From a virus, in the IMG/VR virus record IMGVR_UViG_3300037109_000037, positions 1 to 28,226 of that record: a stretch of DNA of 28,226 bases; one strand, 5' to 3'. Shown here piece by piece: positions 4,682 to 19,458 of this stretch. Below the pieces are notes generated by a model. That model was not told where the DNA came from, did not search any database, and was given only the letters and a program-made list of their open reading frames with translations. The translations under genes and the position numbers were made by a program. The first letter of the stretch is position 1. Each line of letters opens with the position of its first letter.

Positions 4682-5803
4682 ATGGCCACGCAGCCCACAC
4701 CCGCGCCCGCGACCTCGAGCGCTCTCGTTCCGGTCGCCGCCGGCGTCGAGTTCAACCTCGACGCATTCCCCACGGCGCAGTTCAACCGTCTGATTCCGAT
4801 CCAGACGATCCGGATGCCGGGCGACCTGTTCGTCCCGATGGTCCAGATCGTCCAGCTCGATCCAGCCGACAGCCAGGGCAAGTCGGCCGACCACTACAAG
4901 AGCAACGACGTCCCCGGCGGCCACCGGGCGCTCACCGCCCGCGGCCTCAACAAGGTCGCGTCCGCCAGCTCGGTCAGCTTCTTCGACGAGCGCCGGACGG
5001 ACGACGGGAGCGATCCCAACGTCATGGCCGTGAGCGTGATGGCGTCGATGACCCTGCCGACCGGGCTGCGGATCACCGCTCCCGGCTCGCAGCTGATCGA
5101 CATCCGCTCCTGGTTCGGCCCCTCGACGAGCGCGGCCGAGATCGCGAAGTTCCGCAAGCAGTTCTACGCAAACGTCTCGACGCGGGCGAAGAACCGGGCG
5201 ATCCGCGGGCTCCTGTCGATGAAGTCGAGCTACACCGACGCCGAGATCGCCAAGCCGTTTGCGGCCGTGTCGTTCGCCCCGAACATGGCGAACCCGGAGG
5301 TCCGCGCGCGGTTCCTCGACGCGATGGCGCCCTCGGTCGCCCAGCTCTACGGCCCCGAAGCCGCGCCGCAGCTGGCGGCCGGCCAGGTCATCCAGGCTCC
5401 CGAGGCGCCGGAGCACGACGAGGACGACGGCGTGATCGAGGGCCAGGCCACGGACGCCGGCCCGGAGCCCTCCTGGTTCGGGACCGAGGCAGCGCCGGAG
5501 GCCACGGCCACAACCTCGACGCCGGCGATGCGACTGGCCGCGGTCCTGCGGGAGAAGGCCGCGGGCTCCGGCATGGTCGGGCCGGCGACCGCTCCGCAGC
5601 TGCAGAAGCTGGCCGAGGTCTTCGTCGCCAGCAGCATCGGCAGGCCGGAGACAGACGCCGGCCTCCGGATCATCTTCGGGGTCACCGGCCGCACCGACTT
5701 CACCGGGGCCCAGGCCCAGGCGCTCATCGAGTGCTCGGTCGACGCCGAGTTCGGCGACCTGTGGCGCGAGCTCGTGGCGGGTGACGGGGCGCAGGCGGCA
5801 TGA
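4682..5803 (+). CDS. Probable phage single-strand annealing / recombination protein
   Basis: 373 residues with a strong GGAGAGGAGAG ribosome site before ATG 4682, one of few genes here with its own initiation site. The conserved-looking core covers residues ~30-220: RIPGD-like entry (IRMPGDLFVPMVQIV), LTARGLNKVASASSVSFFDE, VMASMTLPTGLRITAPGSQ and STRAKNRAIRGLLSM. The Thr-Arg-Ala-x-Asn-Arg-Ala-x-Arg helix is the kind of element seen in phage Erf/RecT/Rad52-like annealing proteins. A disordered acidic/Ala/Pro linker (~235-285) and a small C-terminal helical domain follow. It directly precedes SbcD and SbcC, matching the usual exonuclease-plus-annealase pairing. The family assignment is an inference, not a certain match. 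Confidence 0.55.
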   Translation: MATQPTPAPATSSALVPVAAGVEFNLDAFPTAQFNRLIPIQTIRMPGDLFVPMVQIVQLDPADSQGKSADHYKSNDVPGGHRALTARGLNKVASASSVSFFDERRTDDGSDPNVMAVSVMASMTLPTGLRITAPGSQLIDIRSWFGPSTSAAEIAKFRKQFYANVSTRAKNRAIRGLLSMKSSYTDAEIAKPFAAVSFAPNMANPEVRARFLDAMAPSVAQLYGPEAAPQLAAGQVIQAPEAPEHDEDDGVIEGQATDAGPEPSWFGTEAAPEATATTSTPAMRLAAVLREKAAGSGMVGPATAPQLQKLAEVFVASSIGRPETDAGLRIIFGVTGRTDFTGAQAQALIECSVDAEFGDLWRELVAGDGAQAA

Positions 5804-5979: not shown

Positions 5980-6266
5980 CCCCGCCCGTCGTGTTCGCCT
6001 TCGCGGATCCGGCACGCCGGACCTGGATCGCCCTCAACCGGGCAGGCGACGCCTACCACGTGGTGACCCCGACGCCCGATGACGCCCAGCTCATCACGGA
6101 CGGCCTGCGGCACAAGGGCCAGCTCAGCTGCTCGTGCGCCGGCGGGCGCTACCGCGGGAGCTGCTACGTGACGGTCGCCTGTGAGGCGATCGAGGCTGGC
6201 CCCTCCGCCGAGCCCACCTGGTTCGACGCGGCTCCGGGCGAGCTCGTGGAGGCCTGGGGCAAGTGA
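5976..6266 (+). CDS. Small Cys-rich protein, SWIM-like
   Basis: 96 residues. The C-terminal half contains LSCSCAGGRYRGSCYVTVACE, reminiscent of the SWIM zinc module (C-x-C...C-x-H), but the expected final His is Val, and a further Cys four residues on may substitute. SWIM modules bind DNA or protein and are common in phage early genes. It lies between the annealing protein and SbcD with ATGA/GTGA overlaps, so it may assist recombination; this is inference. Confidence 0.55.
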   Translation: MTPPVVFAFADPARRTWIALNRAGDAYHVVTPTPDDAQLITDGLRHKGQLSCSCAGGRYRGSCYVTVACEAIEAGPSAEPTWFDAAPGELVEAWGK

Positions 6267-7411
6267 CCAGGATCGGATTTTGCGCAGACCTCCACGTCGA
6301 CGCCTACGGGTCCCGCGTCGATCCGGCAACGGGCCTCAACGCCCGCCTCGTCGACTACCTCGCGACGACCGCCTGGATGGCCGCCGAGGCCCGGCGCCGC
6401 GGGGCCGAGGCGCTCGTCGTCGCCGGCGACTTCACGGAGCGGCGCCATCCCGCGCCCTGGCTCGTGAGCCGGATCCGCGGCGCGCTCTCCGGCTTCCCGG
6501 GCCGCCAGGTCTACCTCCGCGGGAACCACGACGGGGAGATCGCCGGCGGCTCGATCGTGACCCTCCTCGACGATGGGTTCGAGGAGCAGGACGAGGCCGG
6601 CCGGACCGGGGTCAGCCGGCCGGGGCTCGAGCCGATCGCCTTCGACGTCGTCCTCGCCTGCGTCCCGCATCTCGATCGCCACTGGTTGCGGGCCCAGCCG
6701 GGCATGGAGAAGGTCCCCGACGCCGAGGTCTATCAGGCCCTCGGCGACCAGTTCCTGACGATCGCCCGGGGCCTGTACGCCGAGGCGCGGGCCGACTACC
6801 CGGACGCCGCGTGCGTGCTCGTCTGCCACCAGACCCTTGCCGGCGCCCACATGTCCGAGAGCCAGCAGGCCTTCCTCGGCGATCTCGGCCTGGTCGTCGA
6901 CGCCCGGGCTCTCGCCGCGATCGGCTTCGAGGGGATCGTCGCCGGCCACCTGCACCGCCACCAGGTCGTGCTCGAGGAGCCCCCAGTCCTATATCCGGGC
7001 TCGATCGAGCGGGTGGACTTCGGGGAGGAGCACGAGGCCAAGGGGTTCGTGATCGCTGACGTCGAGCCCGGCCGATTCGCCTGGGAGTTCGTCGAGACGC
7101 CGGCGCGGCGGTTCGTGACGCTCATGGGCGATCCGGCCCTCATCGGAGCTTCCGAGGTCGGGGACGCCATCGTTCGCGTCCTGGACCTGGCGCCCGACAC
7201 GGACACCGCGCGGCTGCGGGTAGAGCTCGAAGCTGCCGGGGCCTTCGAGATCGTCCAGATGCAGCAGCGGCGCCCCGATGCCCCGGAGATCGCCGGCGGG
7301 CTGTCGGAGTCGCTCGGTCCCCTCGAGGCGCTCTCCGCGTACTTCGCCGACGACCCGGATGCCGAGCCGCTCGTGGCGCTCGGCCGCGAACTCCTGGAGG
7401 ACGCGGCGTGA
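6263..7411 (+). CDS. sbcD: SbcD/Mre11-type nuclease subunit
   Basis: 382 residues from a GTG overlapping the previous stop. All metallophosphoesterase motifs are visible in order: D9-x-H11 (ADLHVD), GDFTE at 55-59, GNHDG at 87-91, CHQ with H189, and GHLH at 228-231, followed by the Mre11/SbcD signature PGSIERVDFGE near 245. These residues bind two Mn ions for 3'-5' exonuclease and endonuclease action on DNA ends and hairpins. The C-terminal ~110 residues would form the capping domain and the SbcC-binding segment. It is coupled to sbcC by a GTGA overlap, as expected for subunits of one complex. It likely acts in end processing with the upstream annealing protein. Confidence 0.93.
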   Translation: MTRIGFCADLHVDAYGSRVDPATGLNARLVDYLATTAWMAAEARRRGAEALVVAGDFTERRHPAPWLVSRIRGALSGFPGRQVYLRGNHDGEIAGGSIVTLLDDGFEEQDEAGRTGVSRPGLEPIAFDVVLACVPHLDRHWLRAQPGMEKVPDAEVYQALGDQFLTIARGLYAEARADYPDAACVLVCHQTLAGAHMSESQQAFLGDLGLVVDARALAAIGFEGIVAGHLHRHQVVLEEPPVLYPGSIERVDFGEEHEAKGFVIADVEPGRFAWEFVETPARRFVTLMGDPALIGASEVGDAIVRVLDLAPDTDTARLRVELEAAGAFEIVQMQQRRPDAPEIAGGLSESLGPLEALSAYFADDPDAEPLVALGRELLEDAA

Positions 7412-9618
7412 AGCTCGAGTCGATCGACCTGCGCAACTTCCTATCGCACGAGGCCACCCATTGGGAGCCGAACGGCGCGCGCCTGGCGACGATCGTCGGC
7501 TCCAACGGAGCCGGCAAGAGCGCCCTGCTCGACGGCATGCTCTTCGCGCTCTACGACGCCGCCCGCGCCCGGACCGATGACCTCGTGCGCCTCGGCGCCA
7601 CCGACATGTCGGCCGAGGTCACGTTCGCCTTCGCCGGCGCGCGCTACCGGGTCACCCGCGGCCGGACGACGCGCTCGGGCGGCAAGAGCTACCTCGAGCT
7701 CGCGATCGCGCAGGCCGACGGCTCCTGGCGGCCGCTGACGGCCGACTCGATCCGGGAAACACAGGCCGCGATCGAGGCCCTGCTGCGCCTGGATGCGGCC
7801 ACCTTCACGACGGCGGCCTTCCTGCGCCAGGGCGACGCCGACGCGTTCATCTCCGCGACGGCCGCCGAGCGGAAGCGGATCCTCGGCTCCGTCCTGGGGC
7901 TCGACGTGTACGCGGCCGCGGAGGCGCGGGCCCGCGATCGCGGCCGGATGCTCGAGGGCGAGACTGCCGCGGACCGCCGCGCCATGGAGACGCTCGACGC
8001 CGCGCTCGCGCACCGGGCCGAGCTCGAGGCTGCCGCGACCGCGGCGAAGGCCGAGGAAGAGGCGACGGTCGCAGCGATGGAGGTCGCCGGCCGGCGGCGG
8101 GACGCGGCCGAGGAGACCATGCGTTCTCTCGCGGGCCGGCTGGCCGAGGCCAAGGCAGCGCAGGCCGAGCTGGTCCGGATCGATGCCGACCTCGCCGCCC
8201 TCCGCGAGCGCTACCGCCGAGCTGGCGCGGATCGGACGCTGGCGCAGGCCGCGATCGAGCGGTCGAAGGCGGCGGCGACGGCCGTGGTTCCGGAGCACGA
8301 CGTCCTCAACGCCATGGCCGAGGTCGAGACGCTCGAGGCGGCCGACGAGCGGGAGCGGACCCAGCGCGAGGCCCTCGAGGAACGGCGATCTGAGTTCGTC
8401 GAGATGGAGAGGGTCCACACCCAGGTGGTCGCCGACTGGCGCGGACGCCAGGCCACGTATCAGGGACTCGTGACGGCCCTCGAGGACCAGGGGATGCACC
8501 TGGAACCCATCACCTGCCCGAAGTGCGCGCATCGGTTCCCCGCGGATCCGGGCGACGTCGCCGGTCGGCTCACCACGGCCCGGGCGGAGCTCGCCGCGGT
8601 CGGGCCTGCGCCGGCGGAATCGATGACGATGTCCCGCGCTCGGGTCGCGGTCTCGCGGGCGGAGACGCACCTGCTCGAGCACGCGTTCGATCACCAGCTG
8701 CTGCGGACCGCCCGCTTGGCACTGGACGCGGCACGGGGCGCACACGCGGCCGAAGTAGCCCGGGATGGCGCACGTGTAGCACTGGTCGACGCGCAGGCCG
8801 CCCTTGGCCGCGCTGAAGCCGAGCTGGCGGAGATCGACGCAACCGGGAAGACCGCGGCGAGCGTTCGCGCGAAGGCAGCCGAGCGGGCGGCCGATGCCGG
8901 CAAGGTCAGCGAGGAGCTCGCGGCCGCGGAGACCGAGCAACGCGAAGCGATCGCGGCGGCCACAGATGCCGCCCGGCGCCACGCCGGCGCGATCGCGGCC
9001 GATGCCGAGGCTCGCGGTGCCCTGGTCCGCCTCGCGCGCGACCAGGCGGAGCGCGATCGCATCGCCGGCGACGTTGCCCGAGCCGAGACCCAGCTGGCCC
9101 TCCTGCGCCGGCTGGTGACCGCGTTCGGGGTCACCGGGATCCCGGCCCGGATCATCGAGTCGGTCCTGCCGGAGCTCACCAGCTACGCGCAGGAGCTGCT
9201 CGACCAGCTGCGGCCGGGCATGGCGCTCTCGATCCGGGCCCAGCGAGCGAAGCGGGACGGCAAGGGCATCGTCGAGGCGCTCGACCTCGTCGTCCGCGAC
9301 GACGTCGGCGAGCGGCCGCTCTCGCTCTTCAGCGGCGGCGAGCGGATGTCCGTCTCGCTCGCCCTCGCGGTCGGGCTCTCGCGCCTGGTGGCGCGCCGGG
9401 CCGGGACCGCCATCCGGACGCTCGTCATCGACGAGCCCGACGGCCTGGACTCCGAGGCGCGGCGCGCCTTCGGTCTGGCCCTGCGCGTCCTCGCCCACCA
9501 CGGCGAGCTCGAGCGGGTCGTCGTCGTCAGCCACCACGAGGACCTCGCAGAGGTCGGGGACGCGGTCTACCGAGTGTCCAAGGGCCCGGGCGGGTCCGTC
9601 ATCGAGCAGGTCAGCTGA
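7408..9618 (+). CDS. sbcC: SbcC/Rad50-type ATPase subunit
   Basis: 736 residues. N-terminal LRNFLSHEATHW and Walker A GSNGAGKS (31-38); a long Ala/Glu/Arg coiled coil (~170-365); a zinc hook C370-P-K-C373 at its apex; a returning coil to ~560; then signature LFSGGERMS (SGGE at 642-645), Walker B LVIDEP (D675, E676) and the H-switch SHHEDL. All parts of a working SMC-like ATPase that gates SbcD are present. It is shorter than the ~1050-residue bacterial SbcC, mainly through shorter coiled-coil arms, as in other phage versions such as the T4 gp46 type. Together with SbcD it forms the phage's DNA-end nuclease. Confidence 0.93.
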   Translation: MKLESIDLRNFLSHEATHWEPNGARLATIVGSNGAGKSALLDGMLFALYDAARARTDDLVRLGATDMSAEVTFAFAGARYRVTRGRTTRSGGKSYLELAIAQADGSWRPLTADSIRETQAAIEALLRLDAATFTTAAFLRQGDADAFISATAAERKRILGSVLGLDVYAAAEARARDRGRMLEGETAADRRAMETLDAALAHRAELEAAATAAKAEEEATVAAMEVAGRRRDAAEETMRSLAGRLAEAKAAQAELVRIDADLAALRERYRRAGADRTLAQAAIERSKAAATAVVPEHDVLNAMAEVETLEAADERERTQREALEERRSEFVEMERVHTQVVADWRGRQATYQGLVTALEDQGMHLEPITCPKCAHRFPADPGDVAGRLTTARAELAAVGPAPAESMTMSRARVAVSRAETHLLEHAFDHQLLRTARLALDAARGAHAAEVARDGARVALVDAQAALGRAEAELAEIDATGKTAASVRAKAAERAADAGKVSEELAAAETEQREAIAAATDAARRHAGAIAADAEARGALVRLARDQAERDRIAGDVARAETQLALLRRLVTAFGVTGIPARIIESVLPELTSYAQELLDQLRPGMALSIRAQRAKRDGKGIVEALDLVVRDDVGERPLSLFSGGERMSVSLALAVGLSRLVARRAGTAIRTLVIDEPDGLDSEARRAFGLALRVLAHHGELERVVVVSHHEDLAEVGDAVYRVSKGPGGSVIEQVS

Positions 9619-13541: not shown

Positions 13542-14195
13542 ATGCCGCCTCGGTACACCATCCGCCAGGTCGTCGGAACCTATCGCCGCAAGGCGTTCGG
13601 CACGTGCAACGACGACGGCTCGCCGCGCCGGCCAGCCTACGGGCCCGATGCCATCGTGGCGTTCTACGGGATGCTCGAGCTCGCCGAGGAGCAGCCGCGG
13701 CGCGGGCACTTCGAGTCGGAGCGGCTCCTGCGCGTGCTCCTCGAGGGCCCGGCCGGGAGGGGTCGGCGCTTCGCCCGCCAGGTGCCTTTCCTGATCCTGC
13801 AGGGCGATCTGGTGGCCGCCGCCGGCGGCGGTCTGGACGTCGAGGGCTGGGAGATCCTCCAGGAAGGCGACACCACCATCGCCGACCGGGTTGCACGGTT
13901 CCGGTCACGGCGCCGTAACGCGCCTGCTAACGCCGAGGCTAACGGTGCCGGTAACGGCGATGTAACGCCAGCGCTAACGCCCCGTGTAACGGACGAGCCC
14001 CGCACGCGACGCGACGCGCGCGCCACGACGCGCCCGCAACGCCGTGGCGACGGCTACCAGGCGACGGTGGACGGAATCTCTACGAAGGCTCAACAGCAGC
14101 CTGAGGCCGTTGGCGCGCAGGAGGGCGCCGAGGACGGCTCCTGGTTCGAGGCCACGTCACCCGCTGCTGTTCAGCCTGTTGGGACTGTTCGATGA
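13542..14195 (+). CDS. Probable phage replication initiator/replisome organizer
   Basis: 217 residues from ATG 13542, the first gene of the second rightward operon. Residues ~1-100 form a helical domain (PDAIVAFYGMLELAEEQP, ERLLRVLLEGPAG, RRFARQVPFLILQGDLV, then WEILQEGDTTIADRVARFR), the style of phage replication proteins that end this domain with an EGD...V..R..R.R helix. A low-complexity Asn/Ala/Thr/Arg linker follows, encoded by the phased TAACG repeats, then a short tail. An origin within the initiator gene is known from lambda O and many siphophages, which supports the call. No helicase or polymerase motif is present. Assignment is by pattern and context. Confidence 0.55.
   Translation: MPPRYTIRQVVGTYRRKAFGTCNDDGSPRRPAYGPDAIVAFYGMLELAEEQPRRGHFESERLLRVLLEGPAGRGRRFARQVPFLILQGDLVAAAGGGLDVEGWEILQEGDTTIADRVARFRSRRRNAPANAEANGAGNGDVTPALTPRVTDEPRTRRDARATTRPQRRGDGYQATVDGISTKAQQQPEAVGAQEGAEDGSWFEATSPAAVQPVGTVR
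13916..13991. repeat. Seven phased TAACG repeats, candidate replication origin iterons
   Basis: TAACG occurs at 13916, 13928, 13940, 13952, 13963, 13975 and 13987, with steps of 12, 12, 12, 11, 12 and 12 bases, all in the same direction. The first four fall in a reading phase that encodes Asn; after the single 11-base step the last three encode Val-Thr or Leu-Thr. The DNA word and its near-helical spacing survive a change of codon phase, so the signal is at DNA level. It lies inside the initiator-like gene, like the lambda ori in O. Confidence 0.65.
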
Positions 14196-14596
14196 CGAAG
14201 ACCTACGACCGGAGCACCTACGCGGCTGCACGCCGAGCGTGGGCAGAGGGCGACTTCCGGGATCGGCGCTGGCACGCGATCTACCGGCTGGCATCGGAGC
14301 GCGGCTACATCTACCCGCCGACCGGGACCGTCCACGATGACCGCGAGGATGAGCAGCCGAGTCAACGGGCGGTCGTCTACGCGGCGATGTGCGACCAGCC
14401 GGGCGAGCTCGAGCGGGTCATGCGGCGCTCGTCCTCGTGGTCGGCGGTCGTCGCCCAGCTCATCACCCACGTCGAGCGGCTCCGGGAGGACGCCGATCGC
14501 ACCCAGGACGACGTCGATTGGAAGAAGCGGGATCGTCCGCCTCGCGGCGCGGTCCCCGAAGCGATCGCCTCGATCCTGCATCGGATCGCGTCATGA
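14192..14596 (+). CDS. Hypothetical protein of the replication operon
   Basis: 134 residues, ATG overlapping the initiator-like stop. N-terminal YAAARRAWAEGDFRDRRWHAIYRLASERGYIYPPTG, a basic helix pair with aromatic residues, followed by an acidic linker and two more helices (VVAQLITHVERLREDAD). No catalytic motif. The position directly after an initiator is where phages often keep a helicase loader, but nothing in the sequence proves that. Confidence 0.65.
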   Translation: MTKTYDRSTYAAARRAWAEGDFRDRRWHAIYRLASERGYIYPPTGTVHDDREDEQPSQRAVVYAAMCDQPGELERVMRRSSSWSAVVAQLITHVERLREDADRTQDDVDWKKRDRPPRGAVPEAIASILHRIAS

Positions 14597-15084
14597 CCGA
14601 GCCCATGTTCGCTGAACTCGAGCGGGCAGCCGAAGTCCGCCCCTCCGGGCGCTCCCTCTTCGTCCGCGTCCGGGGCGTCCCGATCCCGCAGGGCTCGATG
14701 CGCGGCTTCGTCCGAGGTGGCCATGCCGTCCTTACGAGCGACAACCCGCGCCTGCGGAGCTGGCGCAACGACCTGGCGGCCGCGCTCTTCGCGGCGCGGG
14801 AGGGCCTCCCGATGACCGGGGCTGTCCGCCTCGAGGTCGCGTTCTTCCTGCCTCGCCCCGCCTCCCACTTCGGGCGCCACGGGCTCCTGCCGTCGGCCCC
14901 ACCCCGCCCGATCGGCGCCCGGGATGACCTCGACAAGCTCGTCCGCGCCATCGGGGACGCGGCGACTGTTGCCGGGGTGTGGCGTGACGATGGACAGGTC
15001 GTCGACTGTCGCTCCTCGAAGGACTGGGCCGAGCCGGAGGAGGGCCCAGGCGTGCGCATCGTGATCGCGGAGCTGAATCCGTGA
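14593..15084 (+). CDS. rusA: RusA-like Holliday-junction resolvase
   Basis: 163 residues, ATG overlapping the previous stop. It has the RusA layout: VRGVPIPQGSMRGF entry strand, a basic segment with SWRNDLAAALF, then VRLEVAFFLPRP, and the catalytic region RDDLDKLVRAIGDA (D112, D114, K115) with WRDDGQVV (D132, D133) and SSKDWA. The acidic set and Lys match RusA, a homodimer that cuts four-way junctions symmetrically. The closing GPGVRIVIAEL strand is typical. It would resolve replication or recombination intermediates produced with SbcCD and the annealing protein. Confidence 0.85.
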   Translation: MTEPMFAELERAAEVRPSGRSLFVRVRGVPIPQGSMRGFVRGGHAVLTSDNPRLRSWRNDLAAALFAAREGLPMTGAVRLEVAFFLPRPASHFGRHGLLPSAPPRPIGARDDLDKLVRAIGDAATVAGVWRDDGQVVDCRSSKDWAEPEEGPGVRIVIAELNP

Positions 15085-19326: not shown

Positions 19327-19357
19327 CAGCCCGTCACGTGGGCCACGCCCATAGGCA

Positions 19358-19407
19358 TCGGATTGTGGCTCCGAAGGTTACGGGTTCAATCCCCGTAGGC
19401 CACCCCA
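19358..19407 (+). other. Probable attP core: 3' portion of a tRNA-His (GTG) gene
   Basis: From 19358 the sequence gives an intact anticodon arm (TCGGA/TCCGA, loop TTGTGGC, anticodon GTG at 19365-19367), a 5-nt variable loop, a T arm (ACGGG/CCCGT, loop TTCAATC), a 3' acceptor strand AGGCCAC, the C73 discriminator special to tRNA-His, and CCA. The part upstream does not complete the molecule: an acceptor-like GTGGGCC pairs in only 5 of 7 positions and the D arm is too short. It is therefore a tRNA 3' end, the usual attP core that restores the host gene on integration, lying 87 bp after int. Confidence 0.7.
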
Positions 19408-19458
19408 CTTCTCCTCGTGGGGACACCGCACAGACCCGCACCAATCCGCGCCGTTCCG

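Follow-up and report, generated by a model that had tools for sequence, protein, structure and literature searches.

Seven copies of the word TAACG, set at steps of about 12 bases, are very probably the intragenic iterons of a phage replication origin resembling lambda O/ori, in that they lie within the gene of the protein predicted to bind them. They were found in a linear 28,226-base fragment of viral DNA (IMG/VR virus record IMGVR_UViG_3300037109_000037), here called the window. Comparison strongly supports this reading and shows that the word is selected at the DNA level, that it keeps a constant place after a winged helix and that the gene context is one of replication. From this comparison we infer binding by the encoded protein, a start of replication at the array and the site of strand opening.

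The TAACG array and its reading frames

The array (13916–13991, + strand) lies entirely inside the ORF at 13542–14195. TAACG starts at positions 13916, 13928, 13940, 13952, 13963, 13975 and 13987, i.e. in steps of 12, 12, 12, 11, 12 and 12, within the context G/C-TAACG-G/C. An earlier note on this DNA had described seven such words at steps of about 12 bases crossing a codon-phase shift, with the encoded residues switching from Asn to Val/Leu-Thr at the single 11-base step; the first statement is exact and a count of phases relative to the ATG at 13542 (2,2,2,2 then 1,1,1) confirms the second. Iterons 1–4 (13916–13956, + strand) are read as xxT-AAC-Gxx, each giving Asn, and iterons 5–7 (13963–13991, + strand), 3′ of the 11-base step, are read as xTA-ACG, giving VT, LT and VT in turn.

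The total of 8 TAACG in the 28,226 bases of the window matches the expectation from its composition, and 7 of these 8 fall within 76 bp. None of 300 simulated sequences with matching dinucleotide composition had over 2 TAACG per 80 bp. With the protein held fixed, 200,000 sets of codons sampled from genes of the window contained mostly no TAACG at all, with a maximum of 4. As both the simulated sequences and the codon draws fall short of seven, the array is real and the peptide is no explanation for it.

Two further expectations of the earlier note were not borne out. The words had been thought to lie on nearly one helical face, yet with 10.5 bp to the turn they stand at 0, 51, 103, 154, 171, 223 and 274 degrees (resultant length 0.19) and fit a period of 11.8 bp instead, and one-face phasing was rejected for this array on account of the 274-degree spread. 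GC skew, proposed as a check for an origin, shows no visible switch at the array. The local AT content around the array reaches at most 0.43–0.47 in this genome of 71% GC, and no AT-rich or purine-rich tract is evident beside the array in the window's family.

The initiator-like gene and its product

The gene at 13542–14195 (+ strand) encodes a protein of 217 aa, P0001, for which translation, model and homologs indicate a winged helix, a basic helix, a disordered linker coded by the iterons and a short C-terminus. In a structure model built from 22 family members the winged helix is confident (residues 31–108, coded by 13632–13865, + strand; pLDDT 90–97 over most of its length, order H-E-H-H-E-E-H). 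It is followed by a basic helix (residues 113–126, coded by 13878–13919, + strand) which ends at the first iteron and beyond which the model is disordered. This basic helix occupies the same position as the QRRYRxR helix of other initiators.

A profile search of P0001 gave no Pfam or PHROG match; this includes PF09681 (Phage_rep_org_N) and PF07120 (DUF1376), for which direct profile comparisons were also not significant. Weak matches to phrog_3926 and phrog_2447 (replication initiation) were present in 3 and 2 of the 22 family members respectively (best E 7e-4), P0001 having none, and no INPHARED homologs of P0001, L015 or L094 were found. The best viral neighbours of the predicted fold include DUF1376 and other phage helix-turn-helix proteins, with a replisome-organiser (Phage_rep_org_N) member at rank 21. 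Neighbours among solved structures are generic winged helices of middling Z, where the lack of a specific match is little informative.

In the homologous loci L131 and L134 a DnaC-like helicase loader gene overlaps the stop of the initiator, and the gene directly 3′ of the initiator encodes a G39P-like loader in L139 and a DNA helicase in L141. No helicase loader or replicative helicase adjoining the P0001 gene was recognised within the window. The slot held by helicase loaders in some homologs is here occupied by a small ORF of 134 aa without a family (14192–14596, + strand), which overlaps the initiator stop (ATGA), and next to it lies a RusA Holliday-junction resolvase (14575–15084, + strand; PF05866, 8e-13; phrog_140, 2.6e-23). 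The earlier description of the gene as initiator-like agrees with the loader or helicase directly downstream in homologs, the weak PHROG 'replication initiation protein' matches in some members and the winged-helix model. These data support the view that the gene at 13542–14195 codes for a predicted DNA-binding initiator, paired in homologs with a loader or helicase.

Genomic setting

The window encodes an integrase, a repressor-like protein, SbcC/SbcD-like proteins, RusA, a terminase, a portal and head morphogenesis proteins, the SbcD-like and SbcC-like genes being adjacent (6263–9618). Directly 3′ of the integrase gene is a stretch of 55 bp (19354–19408) with 98% identity to L145 and L148. 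It resembles the 3′ half of a tRNA (GTG anticodon, GGTTCAATCC arm) and is likely an attachment core. A second stretch of 96 bp (14093–14188) is identical to L005, with which the whole aligned region shares about 85% identity, and holds most of an imperfect inverted repeat (14086–14100/14163–14177); the identity may reflect either recombination or another conserved DNA element.

One homolog of P0001 (L127) sits in a Chloroflexi MAG, which suggests that the host phylum is probably Chloroflexi. At about 5373–5640 of this locus an HNH endonuclease-like segment is inserted exactly at the position of the window's iterons and is succeeded by VT-rich GTGACG words; possibly, this is a homing endonuclease sitting in a phage origin. 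Since the window is a fragment, further candidate origins may lie beyond it.

Conservation of the word as DNA in the window's family

Twenty-one family loci were picked by protein similarity of the N-terminal domain only. Val-Thr pairs in their linkers are written GTAACG or GTTACG in 39/57 cases, as against 4/139 in the remaining genes of these loci (binomial p about 1e-46, taking the sequences as independent); in the window, the codons GTA and GTT are seldom used. The context T-AAC-G likewise surrounds 14/60 Asn codons in the linkers versus 4/469. TAACG is read in the N frame and then the VT frame in the window and L129, and in the VT frame in L135, L137 and L138. It lies on the opposite strand in L131 and L139, other family loci have GTAAC variants and several have none. 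L005/L129 keeps both the phase change and a 12,12,12,11,12 rhythm, with different spacers and one 12-bp unit gained or lost. A clear cluster of at least 3 TAACG is present in 8/21 members and absent in more than half, the corresponding figure for GTAAC being 13/21. The orientation of the words is single in the window and in nearly all its relatives.

That selection must act on the DNA, as the earlier note maintained, is upheld by the codon test in relatives selected by protein, by phase-breaking arrays in many unrelated initiators and by use of both strands and several frames. The refuting condition that it had set, relatives preserving the amino acids without the word, turned out in the opposite direction. 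TAACG is conserved as a DNA word rather than as a peptide. The opposite view would be that an N-x-x-x-N / V-T-x-x linker is selected as protein and that the word is a by-product, for which it can be said that most steps are multiples of three and that low-complexity proteins (GNVT tail fibres) do yield spurious TAACG arrays. However, the 11-base step alters the residues and leaves the word intact, the codon test and the synonymous draws given above both argue against it, and in other relatives the word lies on the opposite strand and in different frames. A peptide-repeat or low-complexity reading is refuted for the window's array by the codon, synonymous-draw and phase tests, and we give it a negligible probability.

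The same word in other initiator families

A scan of viral contigs for four TAACG at 12-base steps returned at least 120 stretches. Among the matches listed, many non-repetitive ones come immediately after the helix-turn-helix domain in initiator-like genes, whose GC content varies widely; GNVT tail fibres, LTLG and NGNG repeats, also among the matches listed, are low-complexity protein repeats and were set aside. Most of ten initiator-like carriers that were profiled match PHROG primosomal protein, replication initiation, replisome organizer or DnaD-like loader families, and five match Pfam DUF1376, Phage_rep_org_N or DnaT. The pattern 12,11,12 was found in 25 IMG/VR stretches, compared with 4 for the reversed word; no one-frame peptide repeat gives such steps. 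Most of these stretches are situated just 3′ of the helix-turn-helix part of an initiator-like gene, a position taken by 0/4 reversed-word matches.

Two families carry the word with great regularity. Initiators of the phrog_2509 type have at least 3 TAACG within 45 bp in 42/42 distinct linkers, where it is rank 1 of all 5-base words, and Phage_rep_org_N linkers contain it in 7/8 cases, alongside purine words of the tract that follows. The DUF1376 scan comprised 4 distinct linkers only and is hence little informative. Among named phages fetched by protein similarity, annotated initiators with TAACG at 10–12-bp steps include those of phi11, StB20, A500, Javan584, phiARI0923, VW-6S, PAN70, CP2, TL-2011b and others; the word thus spans phi11, A500, streptococcal, Pseudomonas, Xanthomonas and Escherichia phages. 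Rac ydaU and TP901-1 were rejected as TAACG users, as they have other repeats in the corresponding linker. TAACG is therefore widespread, not universal, among phage initiators. Profile comparison of the window's family with the other TAACG initiator families was not significant, from which it follows that TAACG outlasts recognisable protein similarity. Searches of open-access papers on TAACG/GTAACG iterons, replisome organisers and phage ori turned up no account of the word, which is weak evidence for novelty.

A purine tract such as AGAGAAGAGAAGAG, encoding REEKRREE-like peptides, is found directly 3′ of the iterons in L302–L381 (phrog_2509-type) and L222–L301. A 24-bp segment of at least 90% purine is present in 20/42 phrog_2509-type and 7/7 Phage_rep_org_N linkers (random expectation 0.7–3.6%), and this purine-rich, more AT-rich tract after the array may be a candidate opening element in the two sister families.

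Moreover, the phrog_2509-type loci L302–L381 contain, at about codon 50, a codon-invariant inverted repeat, GGTAACGCT-N3-AGCGTTA, in the N-terminal coding region. The form TAACG-N7-CGTTA occurs in 41/42 such loci, some 200 bp 5′ of the main array, and makes up a second site, perhaps an operator. The typical operator shape of this repeat, together with the fact that DNA-level selection and a winged-helix protein are compatible with any DNA-binding role, lends something to the idea that the window's array is mainly an operator through which the winged-helix protein represses or times its own operon, and not an origin. We consider this unlikely, as the main arrays lie mid-gene rather than at a promoter, their carriers are annotated replication initiators which are then followed by loaders or helicases, and the tract 3′ of the array in phrog_2509-type and Phage_rep_org_N genes is placed as an opening element would be.

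An origin is also preferred over two other roles, a centromere-like site for partition and a target of a host protein instead of the phage initiator. A conserved host factor could explain the presence of one word in phages of very different hosts. However, TAACG arrays are nearly always within initiator genes directly after the winged helix, and in 301 bacterial genomes from the phylum of L127 a three-word array was found in 23/301 chromosomes, which does not exceed the reversed-word control. Partition genes were not recognised, and with an integrase and an attachment-like tRNA end in the window, plasmid-style partition is unneeded. We regard a partition or host-protein site as highly improbable.

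Comparison with known origins

In lambda, the origin is found midway along the initiator gene, where an AT-rich tract adjoins repeated iterons bound by O (PMC7466680). Lambda O/ori-lambda, and also the Stx phages, share with the window direct-repeat iterons in mid-initiator-gene, those of lambda being bound by the encoded O and those of the window putatively by P0001. Similarly, lambda P downstream of O finds a counterpart in the DnaC-like loader directly downstream in the relatives L131 and L134. Lambda has 4 longer iterons (6 in Stx phages) and a distinct AT-rich tract, whereas the window has seven 5-base words about 12 bp apart and no AT-rich tract. The likeness is one of layout, with word length, spacing and protein family differing.

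Parallels in the word itself are seen in Phage_rep_org_N replisome organisers of Gram-positive phages (phi11, A500, StB20, phiARI0923), which have a winged-helix-type N-terminal domain, a basic stretch and linker TAACG at 10–12-bp steps. Unlike in the window, the word often forms an overlapping palindrome, GTAACGTTAC (phi11 relatives), and the purine tract follows. The phrog_2509-type initiators of Proteobacteria phages (VW-6S, PAN70, CP2, TL-2011b) have the same word in the same place, but mostly in ++-- orientation with 12,12,11 steps and with the further inverted pair located in the sequence that codes for the N-terminal part.

Repeats in the linker of the initiator gene are also a feature of TP901-1 rep, Tuc2009 rep and 80alpha ORF20. 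In TP901-1, a lactococcal phage with a rep that is listed as experimental, the order rep – ORF14 – rus equals the window's initiator – small ORF – rusA. TP901-1 and Tuc2009, with known or annotated intragenic origins, differ from the window in the repeat words of the linker, and 80alpha carries CCGTTAACGG, which contains TAACG, at 30-bp spacing.

Proposed mechanism and significance

We propose that the winged helix and adjacent basic helix of P0001 would bind each TAACG, head to tail, at sites slightly over one turn apart, and that neighbouring molecules would stack about 12 bp apart into an O-some-like complex. If the DNA keeps 10.5 bp per turn, a gently spiralling complex is more likely, since the sites wind over 274 degrees. 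Such a complex may then bring in either a helicase loader or DnaB, the helicase of the host, and the strands would open beside the array. As the words lie in a disordered linker, the encoded peptide is nearly free to vary and need only be translatable.

Phage initiator proteins change too quickly for similarity to reveal their kinship, and to our knowledge the origins of most temperate phages are unknown. What appears to be new is one short word common to initiator families whose proteins no longer look alike. On balance, we lean towards TAACG (core G/C-TAACG) being a single ancestral recognition word shared by the winged-helix initiators of phages from Firmicutes, Proteobacteria, Chloroflexi and probably further phyla. 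Such a word would be better preserved than the proteins reading it, could shift freely in frame, strand and layout, and would allow origins in thousands of uncultured phages to be predicted from their sequences. This raises the question of why one five-base target stays fixed across such distant winged helices. The array is a clear example of two codes shaping one coding sequence. Moreover, TAACG could serve for finding replication origins from sequence alone and, being constant while protein, frame and strand change, may offer a direct route to both the origin and the initiator gene in uncharacterised phages.
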